Assembly: GCA_024398135.1 (NCBI GenBank)
Contig: CP073750.1
Coordinates: forward strand, 3,162,001 to 3,226,000
Length of the DNA: 64,000 nucleotides
Direction of reading: 5' to 3'
Origin: a bacterium SCSIO 12643
GTDB taxonomy: Bacteria > Bacteroidota > Bacteroidia > Flavobacteriales_G > Salibacteraceae
Both the position numbers and the translations under genes were made by a program. The notes below the pieces were generated by a model. That model was not told where the DNA came from. It ran no database searches and saw only the letters and a list, made by a program, of their open reading frames with translations. This document shows positions 10,569 to 18,623 of this stretch, piece after piece. Every line of letters starts with the position of its first letter. Position 1 is the stretch's first letter.

Positions 10569-11534
10569 ATGGCGAAAAAGAGATGGAAAATTGGGGTGAG
10601 GTTGATTTTACTGATGCTGATTGTTCCGATTGTTGCATTAACCTATTTTCTATTTGCAAATGAAGCACCTATTCTGGAAGGGAAGATCATTTATGGTGAA
10701 GCCTATCGTCCCAATCAGGAATTGGATATTTATATGCCCACAGAGCGGAAACATGAGCAGATTCCGGTAGTGGTTTTTGTACATGGCGGAGCCTGGATTG
10801 GAGGTTTTAAGGAATCTGTGAATAGCAATCGTTTCAATGAAGTTTTTAATCGACTACGTGCCAACGGTTATGCCATTGTAAGCCCCAATTACACGCTGGC
10901 GCGAAATGGCAAAACACCTTTCCCGGATTGTATTCGAGATGTATATGAAGCCATGTATTGGGTGGAGCAAAAAGCAGATTCATTTGACTTTGATTTGAAT
11001 AACGTAGGCATCTTTGGAGAATCCGCGGGCGCACATATCTCCATGATGGTGGCATTTGACTCGGCCCAGAAGTATACCGATAAAGTATTCACGTATCCAT
11101 TGCGATATGTCGTAGATATATATGGCCCCAATGAACTACAGGGTATTTATCATCAACACACCGTAGACTCTATGAATGCACTCATTGAAGAATTACCGGA
11201 ACCGATTAAGTCCAGTGTAAATATCACAGAACACCTGTTTGGATTTGATCCTAAAACCGATTCGGCACGAGCCACCAAATATTTAGTGGAAAACTCACCA
11301 AGAGTATATGCCCATCAGGAAGTACCTCCCACCTTGATCATTCAGGGCGATGAAGATTTAATTGTACCATTAAGTCAAAGTGTAGAATTGAGTCAAAAAC
11401 TGGATAGTTTGGAAGTTGTAAATCATCTGCATATCATTCCTGAAGCCAATCACGGATTCATTGGAGCCTCTAAAGATCAGAAAGCACAAATTCATAATTG
11501 GATCTATGAATTTGTTGTGGAATATTATCAGTAA
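10569..11534 (+). CDS. Alpha/beta hydrolase (esterase/lipase, BD-FAE-like)
   Basis: The 321-residue protein has an N-terminal hydrophobic anchor (about residues 9-27) and an esterase body. The oxyanion motif VHGGAWIGG, nucleophile elbow GESAG (Ser catalytic), acid GDEDLIVP and C-terminal His in NHGFIG are all present. It would hydrolyse carboxylic esters at the outer face of the inner membrane or in the periplasm. It lies 12 bases after the preceding dehydrogenase gene and completes that operon. Confidence 0.9.
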   Translation: MAKKRWKIGVRLILLMLIVPIVALTYFLFANEAPILEGKIIYGEAYRPNQELDIYMPTERKHEQIPVVVFVHGGAWIGGFKESVNSNRFNEVFNRLRANGYAIVSPNYTLARNGKTPFPDCIRDVYEAMYWVEQKADSFDFDLNNVGIFGESAGAHISMMVAFDSAQKYTDKVFTYPLRYVVDIYGPNELQGIYHQHTVDSMNALIEELPEPIKSSVNITEHLFGFDPKTDSARATKYLVENSPRVYAHQEVPPTLIIQGDEDLIVPLSQSVELSQKLDSLEVVNHLHIIPEANHGFIGASKDQKAQIHNWIYEFVVEYYQ

Positions 11535-11631: not shown

Positions 11632-14262
11632 ATGGAGATTTCAAGTAAATATGCCCCGGTAGAGGTAGAGAAGAAGTGGTATCAAACCTGGATGGATCAA
11701 GGATATTTTAATTCTAAGCCAGACGAAAGAGAGCCATTTACAATAGTCATCCCTCCACCAAATGTAACCGGTGTGTTGCATATGGGACATATGTTGAATA
11801 ACACCATTCAGGATGTATTGATTCGTAAAGCCCGTATGAATGGGAAAAATGCGTGTTGGGTTCCGGGAACCGATCACGCTTCTATTGCTACGGAAGCAAA
11901 AGTGGTAGCGAAGCTGAAAGACGAAGGCATCAATAAAGCAGATTTAACACGTGAAGAGTTTTTAAAACATGCCTGGGATTGGACCGATAAACACGGTGGA
12001 ATCATCTTAGAGCAATTAAAAAAATTGGGAGCTTCATGTGATTGGGATCGTACGGCTTTTACTATGGATGATATTCGTAGTGAGTCTGTAAATCAGGTTT
12101 TTGTTGATTTGTACAACAAAGGTTTGATCTATCGCGGTTACCGAATGGTAAACTGGGATCCCGAAGCGCAAACTACAGTTAGTGATGAGGAAGTAATCCA
12201 TAAGGAACTGAACGGAAAACTATACTTTATGAAGTATATGGTTGAGGGGTCAGATGAATACTTAACTGTAGCAACGACACGTCCGGAAACTATTTTTGGA
12301 GATACTGCTGTTTGTGTAAATCCGAGTGATGAGCGTTACACACACTTGCACGGCAAGAAAATTATCGTTCCATTGGTAGGAAGAGTGGTTCCGGTTATTA
12401 CCGATGATTATGTAGATGTAGAATTCGGAACAGGTGCATTAAAAATTACGCCTGCACACGATATTCATGATAAAGAGATCGGTGATAAAAATGGTTTGGA
12501 AACCATTGATGCGCTGAATGATGATGGAACTTTAAATGCTTATGGAATGCATTATGAAGGGAAAGATCGTTTTGTGGTGCGTAAGGAAATCGTAAAAGAA
12601 TTAGAGTCTTTAGGTTTATTGCTTAAAGTAGAAGATTATACCAATAAAGTAGGAACCTCAGAAAGAACAGGTGCCGTAATTGAACCTAAAATTTCGGTAC
12701 AATGGTTCCTGAAGATGGAAGAGTTGGCTAAGCCTGCTTTGGATTTGGTAATGGATGATGAGGTGAAGTTAATTCCTTCAAAATTCAAGAATACATACCG
12801 TCACTGGATGGAGAATGTACGTGATTGGTGTATTTCTCGTCAGTTGTGGTGGGGACATCAAATCCCGGCTTTCTATTACGGAAAAGGGGTAAACGATTTT
12901 GTAGTGGCAAAAACCATTGAAGAAGCATTGACTTTAGCGCAAGAAGCTACCGGAAATGCAGATTTAAAAGTATCGGATTTAAAACAAGATGAAGATGCTT
13001 TGGATACCTGGTTCTCTTCATGGTTGTGGCCAATGTCAGTGTTTGACGGCATTAGAAATCCGGAAAACGAAGAAATTAAATATTACTATCCCACAAATGT
13101 ATTGGTAACTGCACCGGAGATTTTATTCTTCTGGGTAGCGAGAATGATCATTGCGGGAAATGAATATCAAGGTGCAAAACCGTTTAACGATGTGTATTTG
13201 ACCGGGATCGTTCGCGATAAGCAAGGTCGTAAGATGAGTAAGTCATTAGGAAACTCCCCAGACCCAATCGGATTGATTGAGAAATATGGAGCGGATGGGG
13301 TACGTGTAGGAATGTTGTTGACGTCTCCTGCCGGAAATGATTTACCATTTGATGAAAGTTTGTGTGAGCAGGGACGTAATTTCTCAAACAAAGTATGGAA
13401 CGCTTTGCGTTTGGTAAAAGGATGGGATAGTGATGACAGTATTGCACAACCGGAATCTGCTGTATTGGCCAATCAATGGTTTGAGTCTCGTGTGGCTGAA
13501 GCGATGAAAGAAATGGAAGATAGTTACTCTAAATTCCGTCTATCAGAAGCGCTAATGACGACTTACAAACTGGTTTGGGATGATTTCTGTGGATCTTATT
13601 TGGAAATGATCAAACCGGCATACCAGCAGCCAATTGATGGTAAAACATTAGCAGAAGCGATTGCCAATTTTGAGATCATCGTGAAATTAATGCATCCGTT
13701 CATGCCTTTCATTTCAGAAGAAATCTGGAGCTTGCTTACAGAAAGAGCAGAAAACGATCATATCATTGTAGCTTCATGGCCGGAGATGAAAGAAGTAAAT
13801 CAAGAAATTCTGGATTTATTCAATGCCACTACTAATGTGGTGACAGAAGTTCGTACTTTCAGATTGAATAATGGAATTCCAAATAAAGATGCCATTAAAC
13901 TGATGGTAAATGGAAAGTCCGGAGTAAGTGCTAAATTCGATTCTGTTTTAATCAAGCTTCTCAACCTAAGTGAAGTAACGACCGTAGAGGAAAAGCCGGA
14001 AGGTGTATTCACTTTCGTAGCAAATAATGCGGAATACTACATTCCTGTGGAAGGAATGATTGATGTGGAAGCAGAAACCGCAAAGATTGAAGAAGAATTG
14101 AAATATGTACAGGGATTTATGACTTCGGTAAATAAAAAGCTGGGGAACGAACGTTTCGTAAATAATGCACCTGAAAAGGTAGTAGCTATGGAACGTAAAA
14201 AACTAGCAGATGCTGAAGCTAAAGTGAAGATTTTAGAGCAACAATTGGCTGACTTGAAATAG
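11632..14262 (+). CDS. valS: Valine--tRNA ligase
   Basis: The 876-residue class I aminoacyl-tRNA synthetase charges tRNA-Val. Visible landmarks are [13 protein letters not shown] (HIGH-type motif at 50-53), the editing (CP1) domain with [13 protein letters not shown] and the conserved [20 protein letters not shown], '[14 protein letters not shown]', '[10 protein letters not shown]', KMSKS at 534-538, the anticodon domain, and the C-terminal coiled coil with '[26 protein letters not shown]'. The length is normal for the family. The gene is followed after four bases by an MBOAT gene, which is an unusual neighbour. Confidence 0.98.
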
Positions 14263-14266
14263 GAAT

Positions 14267-16168
14267 ATGATATTTAACGATAATATCAGTTTTTTCTATG
14301 TTGTAGTCTTTATTGTTGTTTACAATGTCGCAAAATCATTTATAACCCATAAATCGGTTAAGAACATCTTATTGCTATTGGGAAGTGTAGTCGTATTGAC
14401 TACACTCACCAATATCGCTTCATTGAGCTTGATTATACTCGCTTCTATTGGAGTGTATTATGGAGGTGTTTTCTTAAGTAAGAGAGAAAAGAATAAACCA
14501 TTTCTGGCTTTATTTATTGGCGTTTTGATCACGCTCTTTGTACTGAAAAACTATAAGATAGCCGATTTTGACCTTTTACAACGGGTTGGATTGTCATACA
14601 TCTTATTTCGTCTGATTCACTTTTTGATTGAAAGCTCAAAGCGTCAAATCCATCGATATAATCTTGGATCGTTTTTAAATTACATCATATTTTTTCCCAC
14701 GTTTATTGCGGGTCCAATTGATGAATACAACAACTTCGATTATTGGGTAACTATAGATCGATTTAAATACGATACGGTGCTGTTTAAAACAGGGTTGTTT
14801 AAGTTATTTGTAGGAATCATCAAGAAGTTTGTTCTGGTTCCGGTAATTGCCGTATATGCAACAGATTTTGCTTTGTTTGAGGTGAATCATGTGTGGCAGG
14901 TAGGATTGATGTATAGTTTGTTGCTGTACTCTGCGTATATCATTTTAGACTTTTCAGGGTATTCGGATATGGCTATCGGAACAGCATATTTGATTGGAAT
15001 TAAAACACCGGAGAATTTTGACAATCCTTATGGAGCCAAGAATCTATCAACGTTCTGGAAGAAGTGGCATATGACATTTTCGAACTTCCTGTTTAAATAT
15101 GTATTTAAACCGGTCGTTGTGAATTTGTCCAGTTGGTTTCCAAACACCAAAAGACTTACCATTTCGCTATTGGGGTATTTAATCACTTTTACGATTTGCG
15201 GGATCTGGCATGGACCGACCATGAACTTTATTTATTGGGGATTATGGCACGGGGTGTTTTTATATTTCTATAAACTCTGGGAGATTTATGCATTGAAAAA
15301 AATGGTGCCTCAGGAAAGTTCTTCAACCCGAAAATTAATTTCCGAATATAGTGGCGTTTTGGTGACTTTTATAGTAGTGACCATCGGATGGTTTTTCTTT
15401 AACTATCAAACTGCAACGATATCGGTTATTGGCCAAAATTTATTCTCTTCAGGATCATCAGAGATGAAAGTGTCTACGGTGGTTTATGATAAAATGCCGG
15501 TTTTAGAAGTGGATTTACTTCAAGATGATTATGAGCAAATCTCCAGTATTGATATTGAACTTATTGGAGCAAGAGATCATGAGGTGTATATGTATCGAGA
15601 TATTCAGCCCAATAATACCAACTCCTACTTTGTATTACCGCAAAGGTTGGATAAAGCACTATTTGAAGTGAATGTGAATCTGCATTTGAAGAACGGGCAA
15701 CAGAAGCAATTGAAACAAGTCACCTATTACTTTAACAATGCTTTTTATCCTTCGGAATTACAGGCGACTTTATTTGGTCAGAATGCGCGAACCTTAATAT
15801 CCGATTTAAAAGGGCAGGAATTAATGTTATCTGAAATTTATTTACCGGCAGAGTTTGAGGAATTTGTTTCGGCAGAAACGAGATATTTTGACGGTTATGG
15901 TTGGGCTATTCAAGCCAATTATAAGGAAATGCCTGAGTACGAAATTTGGGTAGAATACCGACCAAAAGGAGGAGAATGGCAAGTGGACACAGAGCATAGG
16001 GAAGGCAAGTATAATTTTTATCATATACATGGAAACTTTGCCCATGAAGGTCTCAACAGACATATTGCTCCGGGAGATTATGAGATCCGTTTAAAATATG
16101 TTTCCGGACTAAATAGTAGTAGATGGTTCTATACCACCGTTAAAATGGCAGATTATGTTAACAACTAA
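14267..16168 (+). CDS. MBOAT-family O-acyltransferase (DltB/AlgI-like) with C-terminal beta domain
   Basis: The 633-residue protein has about ten membrane segments in its first 400 residues. MBOAT landmarks are DFSGYSDMAIG (228-238), FWKKWHMTFSNFL (263-275) and CGIWHG with the likely catalytic His315, followed by a second WHG at His328. Such proteins move acyl groups across the inner membrane onto surface polymers. An unusual tail of about 230 residues after the last membrane segment (about 385-633) is soluble and beta-rich and probably periplasmic; it looks like a carbohydrate-binding or docking domain. The gene starts four bases after valS and overlaps the next gene by 14 bases, so it is co-translated with the SGNH partner. 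Confidence 0.92.
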   Translation: MIFNDNISFFYVVVFIVVYNVAKSFITHKSVKNILLLLGSVVVLTTLTNIASLSLIILASIGVYYGGVFLSKREKNKPFLALFIGVLITLFVLKNYKIADFDLLQRVGLSYILFRLIHFLIESSKRQIHRYNLGSFLNYIIFFPTFIAGPIDEYNNFDYWVTIDRFKYDTVLFKTGLFKLFVGIIKKFVLVPVIAVYATDFALFEVNHVWQVGLMYSLLLYSAYIILDFSGYSDMAIGTAYLIGIKTPENFDNPYGAKNLSTFWKKWHMTFSNFLFKYVFKPVVVNLSSWFPNTKRLTISLLGYLITFTICGIWHGPTMNFIYWGLWHGVFLYFYKLWEIYALKKMVPQESSSTRKLISEYSGVLVTFIVVTIGWFFFNYQTATISVIGQNLFSSGSSEMKVSTVVYDKMPVLEVDLLQDDYEQISSIDIELIGARDHEVYMYRDIQPNNTNSYFVLPQRLDKALFEVNVNLHLKNGQQKQLKQVTYYFNNAFYPSELQATLFGQNARTLISDLKGQELMLSEIYLPAEFEEFVSAETRYFDGYGWAIQANYKEMPEYEIWVEYRPKGGEWQVDTEHREGKYNFYHIHGNFAHEGLNRHIAPGDYEIRLKYVSGLNSSRWFYTTVKMADYVNN

Positions 16169-17243
16169 GAATGTATTGAAAAATAGTTTGTGGGTGTCGG
16201 CATGTTGCACATTACTTATTGTAGGTGTATTGATTCCTGGATATATCTTACTTCAGGATTCTTCAGATCAAGTGGAAGTTCCAAAAGGGAAGCATATCAA
16301 ATCGGGAAGTAGATTGTTATATAGTTTTTTAGAGCAGGTCAAAGCGGATGAAGATTATCTGGTATTAGGAACCTCTGAAACTGGAATCTATATGGATGGA
16401 TTGAATTTTTGGGGATTGCTGGATAAAGACTCCACTTTAGCACATCGTTTTTACAGTTTTGGAGGAGCAGGGAGATGTTCATATGTATATTTCCCATTGA
16501 TTCTGGATAATCCCGAAGTATTTAAAGATTTAAACCTCATATTGTATATAAATCCCACGTATTGGAGAAAGGGACTCAATAATTTCAGAGAAGATTATTA
16601 TAACAGATATATCGCCAATGGATTAGTAGGTGCAGTGAAGTCTCCAGCTAAAGATATAGGAATCTATGAGGAGTTTATGGCTCCCGTAGCTCCAATGGTT
16701 TCGGTTCCGGTATATGGGGCTAGAATCGTGGATAATTTTAGAAGTTTGTATTATCATGATTTAAATCAAATACTTTCTGAAAAAGAGCAGGATAAATTCC
16801 AAAAGAATCTGGTAGTGGATTCTGTGGGACTGAGAAATGTATACCAACAAATGACAGAAACGTTGGATATGGAATTAAATTCCACTCATGAATATGCCCA
16901 AAAGAATAACGGATTTACTGTGATAGATCAGGAATCGGAGTTCCAGTCCAATATGTTACGTGCTTTTATTCAATTGGTAGAGAAATATGATATCAATTGT
17001 TTGTTTTATGTAGGTCCGGTCAATGAAGTATATGGAATGCAGAAAAACCCGGATTATGTACCCGCGCATCATGAGGTGATGAAAGAAATCAAACAGATTT
17101 TGGATGAGCATCAACAACCATATTTAGATGGTACAGCTCAGGGTAAAATTCCCGGAACATTTTCAGATGTACAACATATCTCGGAATATGGGGCGTATTT
17201 AACAGCAATGCAGATCAAAGAATATTATGAAAAAGCTCAATAA
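16155..17243 (+). CDS. SGNH-hydrolase-like acyltransferase partner (DltD/AlgX-like)
   Basis: The 362-residue protein has one N-terminal membrane anchor (about residues 11-33) and a periplasmic domain. The SGNH block I is LGTSET with Ser74; the C-terminal DVQH gives Asp338 and His341, the DxxH pair of the triad. This order and length match DltD, which passes an acyl group to the surface polymer. It overlaps the MBOAT gene by 14 bases and the microprotein gene by 17 bases, a tight three-gene unit. The polymer and acyl group are unknown; lipopolysaccharide, exopolysaccharide or capsule are possible acceptors. Confidence 0.85.
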   Translation: MLTTKNVLKNSLWVSACCTLLIVGVLIPGYILLQDSSDQVEVPKGKHIKSGSRLLYSFLEQVKADEDYLVLGTSETGIYMDGLNFWGLLDKDSTLAHRFYSFGGAGRCSYVYFPLILDNPEVFKDLNLILYINPTYWRKGLNNFREDYYNRYIANGLVGAVKSPAKDIGIYEEFMAPVAPMVSVPVYGARIVDNFRSLYYHDLNQILSEKEQDKFQKNLVVDSVGLRNVYQQMTETLDMELNSTHEYAQKNNGFTVIDQESEFQSNMLRAFIQLVEKYDINCLFYVGPVNEVYGMQKNPDYVPAHHEVMKEIKQILDEHQQPYLDGTAQGKIPGTFSDVQHISEYGAYLTAMQIKEYYEKAQ

Positions 17244-17349
17244 AATATTCTACACGGTGGTACTGACTATTTTGTTTACAGCAGCTTGTGTCTATCTTTT
17301 GATGCAAGATAATGTAGCGGATATCCCATATATGTATCTGGAGTTTTAA
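17227..17349 (+). CDS. 40-residue membrane microprotein, DltX-like acyl carrier candidate
   Basis: The frame from the ATG at 17227 to TAA at 17347-17349 is too short for usual gene callers. The peptide starts MKKLNK, has one membrane helix (about residues 7-26), a short polar linker QDNVADIP and ends YMYLEF at the C-terminus. DltX of Gram-positive D-alanylation systems has the same plan, with positive N-terminus inside, one helix, and a C-terminal FIYNEF motif whose Tyr carries the acyl group (family knowledge from memory). Aromatic, hydrophobic, Tyr, any, Glu, Phe are all kept. An AAAGAA ribosome-binding-like stretch lies before the ATG. Overlap with the DltD-like gene supports translation as a unit. 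Confidence 0.72.
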   Translation: MKKLNKIFYTVVLTILFTAACVYLLMQDNVADIPYMYLEF

Positions 17350-17460: not shown

Positions 17461-17469
17461 TAGTGCCTC

Positions 17470-17477
17470 TAATTTTG
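17470..17477 (+). promoter_or_regulatory. -7 box of the phytase promoter
   Basis: TAATTTTG fits TAnnTTTG exactly. It lies 18 bases before the preferred ATG at 17496 and just behind the tandem repeats. There is no separate -33 TTG, in keeping with an activator-dependent promoter. Confidence 0.55.
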
Positions 17478-17495
17478 TTTCAAATAAGAATTGGA

Positions 17496-18623
17496 ATGAA
17501 ATCACCTAAAAAAACAAGCATTAACTGGTCTTTGGCATTACTTACTGTAGGGTACGGTTTTTTAATGAATACCTGTATGACGGAGACCAGAGAATTTAAC
17601 GATGCCATTGCAGTAGCTAAGGTTAAAGCGATGGCACAAACTACTCCGGTTTCTATTGATGATGATGCTGCAGACGACCCTGTGATTTGGATTAACTCAA
17701 AAGATAGTACCCATAGCTTAATCTTTGGAACCAATAAGAAAGAAGGAATCGAAGTATATGATCTGAAAGGAAACCGTGTAGCGCAGTATCCGGTAGGTCG
17801 TGTCAACAATATTGATTTACGTTATAATTTTATCTTGGGAAGTGATACCATAGATTTGATTGGAGCGACCAATAGGACGAGCAATACATTAAGCTTTTTC
17901 AGAATTCATCAGGATGGGAAATTAACCCCCGTGGGAGATTCTTCATTTGTTTCGAACATTGATCCGGTATACGGGTTTACCATGTACCAATCTAAAAAAG
18001 ATTCTACGGCTTATGCTTTTGCGATTAGTAAGAAAGGACAGTTGGAACAATGGAAGTTAAACGGGGCGGATAGCAATTTAACCGGAGAAATTGTAAAGAC
18101 GTATGATTTTGGAAATACCTGTGAAGGTCTGGTAGCAGATGATTATACAGGGTATTTATACATTGCTGAAGAAGATAAAGGAATCTGGAAATGGAATATT
18201 GATGCGCATAGTACGGAAGCTCCGGAATTGATTTTCTCATTGGAAAAGAGTACCAAACTAAAAGGAGATATTGAAGGGATTGCCTTGTATTATGTGGATG
18301 AAACCCAAGGATATTTGATTGCTTCAAGCCAGGGGAATAATACCTATGCGGTATTTGATCGTGAAGCACCGCATAAATACCGAGGAAGTTTTGCAGTGGA
18401 GGATGGGGATCAAATTGATGGTACAGAAGAAACCGATGGGTTAGATGTATTGAATTTGAGATTACCAGGATATCCAAATGGAATGTTGGTAATTCAGGAT
18501 GGGTATAACATGGAAAATGGAGATACCATCAATCAGAACTTCAAAATTGTAGATTGGTCAGACGTGGCCAGAGGTATGAATCCACCTCTGGAAATTTCGA
18601 ACGGATTTGATGCTTTACATTAA
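17496..18623 (+). CDS. Beta-propeller phytase (3-phytase family)
   Basis: The 375-residue exported protein is read from the ATG at 17496; a GTG at 17463 would put the promoter box inside the gene. An N-terminal hydrophobic segment ends near a Cys (MNTCMTE), perhaps a poor lipobox. The mature part has beta-propeller phytase signatures: DDDAADDPVIWIN, FGTNKKEGIEVYDLKGN, GRVNNIDLRY, CEGLVADDYTGYLYIAEEDKGIWKW and GDIEGIALYY; the acidic residues bind calcium and phosphate. It releases phosphate from phytate outside the cytoplasm. It converges on a lipoprotein gene, overlapping by four bases, next to a TonB receptor. Confidence 0.9.
   Translation: MKSPKKTSINWSLALLTVGYGFLMNTCMTETREFNDAIAVAKVKAMAQTTPVSIDDDAADDPVIWINSKDSTHSLIFGTNKKEGIEVYDLKGNRVAQYPVGRVNNIDLRYNFILGSDTIDLIGATNRTSNTLSFFRIHQDGKLTPVGDSSFVSNIDPVYGFTMYQSKKDSTAYAFAISKKGQLEQWKLNGADSNLTGEIVKTYDFGNTCEGLVADDYTGYLYIAEEDKGIWKWNIDAHSTEAPELIFSLEKSTKLKGDIEGIALYYVDETQGYLIASSQGNNTYAVFDREAPHKYRGSFAVEDGDQIDGTEETDGLDVLNLRLPGYPNGMLVIQDGYNMENGDTINQNFKIVDWSDVARGMNPPLEISNGFDALH

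Follow-up and report, generated by a model that had tools for sequence, protein, structure and literature searches.

A conserved MBOAT-SGNH-microprotein module that is probably a split, carrier-free acyl-shuttle O-acyltransferase

The acyl shuttle of envelope acylation was reportedly first described in a Nature Microbiology paper of 2023, and two groups of described systems stand closest to the locus discussed here. The Dlt system of Gram-positive bacteria combines a tail-less MBOAT acyltransferase (DltB), the SGNH protein DltD and a single-helix microprotein (DltX) with an aromatic-x-Tyr-x-x-Phe end, together with the ligase DltA and the carrier DltC. The fused-tail systems, including PatA/PatB of peptidoglycan O-acetylation, combine an MBOAT and an SGNH protein without a dedicated carrier and follow a C-terminal hexapeptide logic, as set out in PMC12148441. 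In the same 2025 source, MBOAT/SGNH pathways other than Dlt are said to lack a carrier and a DltX-like microprotein. The dlt genes are known in a few Gram-negative bacteria, for example Dickeya and Pectobacterium (PMC5541007), so that a Gram-negative Dlt system is not new as such. This report addresses a stretch of 64,000 nucleotides from the bacterium SCSIO 12643 (contig CP073750.1, positions 3,162,001 to 3,226,000; hereafter the window), in which an MBOAT gene, a gene for a DltD-like SGNH protein and a 40-codon gene for a microprotein form one module.

The module has in common with Dlt the tail-less MBOAT, the DltD-like SGNH protein and the single-helix microprotein with its aromatic-x-Tyr-x-x-Phe end. 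It differs from Dlt in that no DltA or DltC was found, in the gene order MBOAT-SGNH-microprotein, and in a host that carries LpxC. With the fused-tail systems it shares the MBOAT and SGNH pair, the lack of a dedicated carrier and the hexapeptide, but there the hexapeptide sits on two extra helices of the MBOAT, whereas in the window it belongs to a separate protein. The published statement has an exception in the window module and its relatives, which possess a microprotein without a carrier, and the carrier and the microprotein are therefore separable features. We propose that the module is probably a split, carrier-free acyl-shuttle O-acyltransferase.

The three-gene module is real and conserved. 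The open reading frame (ORF) calls confirmed the layout described by the sequence-only reading, in which the MBOAT and SGNH genes overlap by 14 bases (16155-16168) and the SGNH and microprotein genes by 17 bases (17227-17243; Table 1). The 40-codon frame encodes MKKLNKIFYTVVLTILFTAACVYLLMQDNVADIPYMYLEF, a single-helix protein ending YMYLEF, as that reading had said. An MBOAT search of 41 genomes gave six strong relatives, at 43-48% identity in that search, and class-wide scans added a seventh, L177. Conservation of the small frame and of its six terminal residues, on which the claim of an overlooked gene hung, holds in all seven relatives with the whole locus visible (L038-L043, L177; MBOAT cores 42-57% identical in the six measured): each has the MBOAT, the SGNH protein and, downstream, a microprotein of 36-40 residues in the same order, with a single hydrophobic helix and the C-terminal end [YF]-[LIM]-Y-x-x-F. 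The individual ends are YLYLEF (L038), YLYIDF (L039), YIYANF (L040), FLYANF (L041), YLYANF (L042 and L043) and YIYAGF (L177). An eighth relative, L178, shows the SGNH protein and a microprotein ending FMYADF at a contig start, so that any MBOAT would lie beyond the contig.

Five columns, M1, L24, I33, Y37 and F40, are invariant in the seven window-type microprotein rows. The strict motif [FYW][ILMVFA]Y..F ends 14 of 1869 ORFs of 30-70 residues in 18 loci (308,960 bp), and all 14 are microproteins adjoining unfused MBOATs, with none among the remaining 1855; this background is drawn largely from the loci themselves (L200 and L201 left out, the L178 frame over the length limit), so that the count is a frequency measure and not an independent sample. 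Codon positions 1, 2 and 3 are identical at 50, 60 and 33% across eight microprotein genes, and the window and L038 genes differ by 0.42 non-synonymous changes per site (dN) against 2.1 synonymous (dS), a ratio that is indicative only as dS is saturated. The codon-position pattern and a dN well under dS point to purifying selection on the small frame, with the same indicative standing. A simple count gives a net charge of +3 before the helix and -3 after it, and a hydropathy of 2.22 over 18 residues, which suggests an N-in, C-out topology.

The MBOAT of the window scores 87.3 bits against Pfam MBOAT and 208.7 bits against NCBIfam DltB (TIGR04091) over residues 6-379, under the cut-off of 375. 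Its model is nearest to DltB 6bug (Z 35.1, root-mean-square deviation 3.6, 382 residues aligned), the next nearest other protein being PORCN at Z 28. The MBOAT fold keeps both active-site histidines; in the 44-row alignment, the five exceptions to His315 are MBOATs of complete dlt operons, with Asn. The C-terminus, ...FYTTVKMADYVNN, ends ADYVNN and carries no fused hexapeptide tail, and an MBOAT of the fused-tail (PatA/AlgI) type was ruled out on that account.

The SGNH protein reaches 21.7 bits (E 1.5e-4) against Pfam DltD (PF04914), just under the cut-off of 22.7, while the DltD proteins of two complete dlt operons reach 155.5 and 163.5 bits. An hhalign comparison with Latilactobacillus DltD aligned GTSE with GSSE and INPxYW with ISPQW (E 0.0033, probability 9.7). 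S74, D338 and H341 are invariant in 7 of 7 rows, the putative triad being assigned by alignment position, and one N-terminal hydrophobic segment was seen by eye. A PDB sequence search with the SGNH alignment gave no match. The identities first given to the MBOAT and the DltD-like protein stand, the second from below its family cut-off.

The microprotein matches the layout of DltX, a protein of about 40-50 residues: it has 40 residues, a positive N-terminus, one helix and a predicted outside C-terminus. In YMYLEF, the Tyr and the last Phe of the DltX end F-x-Y-x-x-F are kept, and the first position is Tyr, not Phe. The proposed alignment with DltX bore out the C-terminal Tyr, which is present in 20 of 20 rows and is the one invariant column across this mixed set, two annotated DltX included. 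In DltX itself, the fully conserved residues are given as one Leu in the helix and one Tyr outside (PMC5541007). The microprotein profile compared with the two annotated DltX gave E 4e-4 and probability 35. Pfam DltX (PF12459) had no match to the window microprotein; it was the best match of L177 (18.2 bits, E 0.0018) and the sole match of L040 (14.3), with a cut-off of 25 and annotated controls at 72.6 (L210) and 57.9 bits (L211). Neither the single microprotein sequence nor the microprotein alignment had a match in PDB sequence searches. The module most likely works like DltB-DltD-DltX, while lying outside those families by curated cut-offs.

As the sequence-only reading had noted, no DltA or DltC is seen. 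The best DltA match in the window genome is 57.6 bits, against a cut-off of 559.85, and the genome holds one match to the PP-binding (acyl carrier protein) family. Profiles of DltA and DltC made from complete operons found no match at nine of nine window-type loci (7.7-64 kb each). A complete Dlt system with its parts in trans was rejected, given no DltA and a single carrier in the genome.

Complete Dlt-like operons are found in the class of the window (L197, L198, L199, L202, L203, and L213-L224 with short flanks), and two of them, L197 and L203, are in genomes of its own genus. A Pfam PP-binding carrier stands over the cut-off at 5 of 5 loci with enough flank, and four ligases score 373-423 bits against NCBIfam DltA. 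The order is carrier-DltD-microprotein-MBOAT-ligase at four of these five, and DltD-carrier-microprotein-MBOAT-ligase at L202; the microproteins end F-[IV]-YQQF. A profile of these microproteins matched 14 of 390 class genomes, 12 of them strongly (E 1.5e-8 or better), and at all 12 strong loci (L213-L224) DltD, MBOAT and DltA adjoin the microprotein, L213 being the L198 locus. The complete operons have in common with the window the separate microprotein, the unfused MBOAT and DltD; they differ in the carrier, the DltA-like ligase, the F-[IV]-YQQF end, the gene order and an Asn in place of the catalytic His. This replacement of an otherwise near-universal residue (W-N-G for W-H-G) was seen in 5 of 5 and in 12 of 12 MBOATs, one locus shared, with the second active-site His still in place. 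That an entire group should lack the catalytic His was unexpected, and raises the question of how such an MBOAT works without it. The sequence-only reading had held that teichoic acid is absent from Gram-negative cells, so that donor and polymer must differ from those of Dlt. The part concerning the lack of a ligase and carrier holds at this locus; "must differ" is too strong, since Dlt-like operons with both occur in two genomes of the genus and elsewhere in the class, and dlt genes occur in a few Gram-negative bacteria.

The mechanism that we propose is conditional throughout, donor, acceptor and chemistry alike. A cytoplasmic thioester, in all likelihood a short-chain acyl-coenzyme A (acyl-CoA) such as acetyl-CoA, would supply the acyl group, which the MBOAT would pass through its pore, the reaction centre lying at His315 and His268. 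In the periplasm the MBOAT would load Tyr37 in the C-terminal hexapeptide YMYLEF of the membrane-anchored microprotein. From the microprotein the group would move to Ser74 of the DltD-like SGNH protein, and this protein would transfer it to a polymer outside the cytoplasm, probably a surface polysaccharide. The steps through acyl-Tyr and acyl-Ser are proposed by analogy with Dlt, for which shuttle chemistry is described, and with PatAB, for which it is shown (PMC12148441). A three-part shuttle from MBOAT to microprotein to SGNH protein is quite likely. Acyl-CoA as the donor stands at about an even chance; PMC12148441 says that carrier-less MBOAT-SGNH systems use it.

For the acceptor, a surface glycan is somewhat favoured. 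In L038, the closest relative, a NeuB gene precedes the MBOAT gene by 45 bases, and their cluster also encodes a cytidylyltransferase, a DegT aminotransferase, a polysaccharide flippase, a hexapeptide transferase and a PIG-L deacetylase. The window genome has three NeuB matches. On these two grounds, the acceptor of the long form is best guessed to be a surface glycan that contains nonulosonate, from one locus of eight. Teichoic acid was set aside as acceptor, the genome having LpxC, although no search aimed at it was made. The host is likely a Gram-negative member of the Bacteroidota, since its genome encodes LpxC in a 464-residue open frame and its fused MBOAT groups with Bacteroidota. This second MBOAT of the genome (L180:6755-11266) has a fused tail ending MQPFIYFQF, lies beside two genes, one of GDSL type, and groups with four named Bacteroidota rows (support 100/99).

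The rival explanations differ in the donor, in the group moved and in the role of the microprotein. It is unlikely, although by no means far-fetched, that the same shuttle draws on the cell's single acyl carrier protein (acyl-AcpP of fatty-acid synthesis) and moves a longer or hydroxylated chain. After residue 282 the MBOAT of the window retains a longer segment that DltB also has and that is absent from fused MBOATs in the 44-row alignment. In DltB this helix (300-307) docks the carrier DltC, which would favour a carrier-bound donor, and the one PP-binding match in the genome could serve. The lack of a dedicated carrier at all nine loci speaks against it, as does the use of acyl-CoA ascribed to published carrier-less systems (PMC12148441). 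D-alanylation or another aminoacylation, with ligase and carrier encoded elsewhere, is a slim prospect: the MBOAT and SGNH proteins are most like DltB and DltD, and two genomes of the genus have complete Dlt-like operons, but the best DltA match falls far below the scores of complete-operon ligases, the genome has a single carrier protein, and the clade of window-type MBOATs is separate from the complete-dlt type (joint clade not rejected).

It is improbable that the microprotein is a structural subunit tying the MBOAT to the SGNH protein, with the acyl group passed directly or by another residue and the tail being only a docking peptide. A single-helix protein of 40 residues encoded directly after the SGNH gene would suit such a role, and the case for the shuttle is drawn from sequence and position. 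Against a purely structural role it counts that the sole invariant residue across the 20 microproteins is the acyl-carrying Tyr of Dlt, that the same hexapeptide is fused to the MBOAT at 74 of 79 loci among the matches listed, and that the hexapeptide Tyr of Campylobacter jejuni PatA is shown to be acetylated (PMC12148441). That the 40-codon frame arose by chance within the end of the SGNH gene is next to inconceivable: the frame is short and overlaps that gene, but conservation in 7 of 7 relatives, a coding codon-position pattern and the absence of such an end from 1855 other short ORFs ruled it out.

Several findings weigh against a carrier-free shuttle with a surface glycan as its acceptor, or limit how far it extends. 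The window-type proteins do not reach the curated cut-offs of DltB, DltD or DltX, and six of the eight window-type microproteins, the window's included, have no Pfam DltX match. The DltA and DltC profiles match all five complete dlt operons, and for four of the five ligases and every carrier that match follows from how the profiles were built; independent support comes from NCBIfam for four ligases, from the profile on the ligase of L203, and from Pfam PP-binding for five carriers. In the class, 20 of 395 genomes pass E 0.01 with the microprotein profile, six of them strongly (E 6.2e-8 or better), and the other 14 (E 2.4e-4 or worse) were taken as chance without inspection. The kept segment after residue 282, discussed above, is a further such point. 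The glycan context comes from one locus of eight, and the window locus, between valS and a phytase gene, is uninformative on the acceptor. Among 19 neighbours scanned at the other six relatives, one is a sure glycan enzyme, a family-2 glycosyltransferase 4.2 kb away at L039; others include peroxiredoxins, methyltransferases, an ABC transporter, TetR and an epimerase-type dehydrogenase. Among the more distant split loci treated below, the candidate microproteins of L044 and L045 lie inside longer frames with guessed starts, that of L046 is upstream of the MBOAT and that of L047 is 224 bases downstream. Weak DltA- and DltC-like matches at L045 and L047 mean that these two loci are not carrier-free. 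The scan behind L196 scored four candidates per genome, the microprotein of L201 (45 residues) ends in Trp (QFRYMQW) and not in Phe, and a union of window-type and fused MBOATs is only on the border of rejection in the approximately unbiased topology test (p-AU 0.054).

The window-type module is coherent, and its occurrence is rare and patchy. Among 42 genomes of the order, the microprotein profile by itself picked out 8, namely the window, the six first relatives and the genome of L178. The MBOAT profile run on 198 class genomes gave three matches, at 506-598 bits, each accompanied by the microprotein, the next match among those listed being at 203.2 bits or less. At L042 (7321-11231), a split MBOAT-SGNH-microprotein module adjoins a fused-tail MBOAT ending QFIYFQF.

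A wider survey of MBOATs took in 80 listed loci, 79 with an ORF, mostly fused and with no close relative of the window among the matches listed. Of these 79, the hexapeptide is fused to the MBOAT C-terminus at 74 (73 by pattern, L073 by eye), and the five without the fused motif each have a candidate microprotein nearby: L044 (Actinomycetota), L045 (Polyangiaceae), L046 (Anaerolineae), L047 (Clostridiales) and L050 (Chisholmbacteria). Eight further short-frame MBOATs were fetched, and all six intact ones have a microprotein; the other two are L200, cut by a contig end, and L204, a fused MBOAT with a frame break, and a 271-residue MBOAT fragment (G002:C275) was not among the eight. L196, from another class of the phylum, has an MBOAT, an SGNH-sized protein and a 58-residue microprotein ending FFYSDF. 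No DltA- or DltC-like match was found at L044, L046, L050 or L196 within the DNA examined at each locus. The Chisholmbacteria locus (L050:2372-3657) holds an unfused MBOAT and a 36-residue microprotein ending EFIYVDF. L045 (8222-12337) encodes in a row an AMP-binding ligase, an MBOAT with no fused tail, a candidate microprotein with the end GFIYGNF and a protein of GDSL type. L201 (528-7811) has an unfused MBOAT, two AMP-binding ligases and, in the SGNH position, a 333-residue protein with no Pfam match.

The fused MBOATs form one group in three trees (support 100/99, 98/95 and 97/91), sampled as every second fused locus in the first tree and about half of those in the second. The window-type MBOATs form their own clade of eight, apart from the fused-tail clade (99/97 in the second tree, 100/100 in the third), and DltB groups with the five complete-dlt MBOATs (98/95 and 100/97). 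One clade of window type and dlt is not rejected (p-AU 0.162); the topology tests omit the long branches L045, L201 and L098. In the first tree, which is without the complete-dlt rows, DltB joins L046, flagged as a possible long-branch join. The root is unplaced, so a single origin of the fused form is said only to fit these trees. The fused tail is also borne by AlgI and WssH. A broader proposal is offered tentatively, at somewhat less than even odds: that a separate shuttle microprotein without a carrier is a third, previously unrecognised architecture of envelope acylation, that split systems are old and spread over several phyla, some of them Gram-negative, and that the fused MBOATs (AlgI, PatA, WssH) arose once, by an ancestral MBOAT capturing the microprotein as its tail.

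The MBOAT of the window also bears an extra C-terminal part, described by the sequence-only reading as a beta domain of about 230 residues outside the membrane. The domain is present and beta-rich in models, with low confidence there; it is not a part of the common module. It is of full length in L038 and shorter in L039, and the MBOATs of L040-L043 and L177, at 389-402 residues, are without it. Folded alone, it reached a mean predicted local distance difference test (pLDDT) score of 49.8 and a best Z of 8.4, and its matches to Ig-/FnIII-like sandwiches, at Z about 7-8, come from poor models; it consists perhaps of two such sandwiches. Pfam gave nothing useful on this domain. The loop that precedes the last helix (residues 344-356) contains four Lys/Arg, against none in the 20 residues that follow this helix, and these charges would probably place the domain on the periplasmic side.

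Around the module, the upstream valyl-tRNA synthetase gene (valS) ends at 14262, four bases before the MBOAT start, and the phytase gene (17463-18623) lies downstream of the three genes. A BD-FAE-type esterase gene (10569-11534) is found upstream of valS. A scan for sigma-70 promoters and terminators gave no more matches than in shuffled sequence. The features of the module are collected in Table 1.

Table 1. Features of the three-gene module, in window positions.
Feature	Position	Strand	Basis
MBOAT acyltransferase, 633 residues, DltB-like core residues 1-379	14267..16168	+	ORF call; Pfam MBOAT; NCBIfam DltB; model nearest DltB 6bug
MBOAT His268 codon, equivalent to DltB His289	15068..15070	+	alignment with 6bug; His in 44/44 aligned rows
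MBOAT His315 codon, equivalent to DltB His336 (catalytic His)	15209..15211	+	alignment with 6bug; His in 39/44 rows
Extra MBOAT C-terminal part, about residues 390-633, beta-rich	15434..16165	+	low-confidence models; sequence
DltD-like SGNH protein, 362 residues	16155..17243	+	ORF call; Pfam DltD just under cut-off
SGNH Ser74 codon (GTSE), putative nucleophile	16374..16376	+	invariant in 7/7 rows
SGNH Asp338-x-x-His341, putative rest of triad	17166..17177	+	invariant in 7/7 rows
DltX-like microprotein, 40 residues, C-terminus YMYLEF	17227..17349	+	conservation, motif, codon positions
Microprotein Tyr37 codon, putative acyl-carrying tyrosine	17335..17337	+	invariant in 7/7 window-type rows

Among the listed titles and abstracts of open-licence literature, no such microprotein in Bacteroidota turned up. 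Its existence as a separate protein of 40 residues gives the module its practical value. Mutating or tagging the shuttle peptide, or putting a synthetic one in its place, leaves the MBOAT untouched, so that the acyl-Tyr shuttle becomes testable in trans. The split form also offers a rule for finding overlooked genes, in that an MBOAT without a fused tail predicts an adjoining microprotein.

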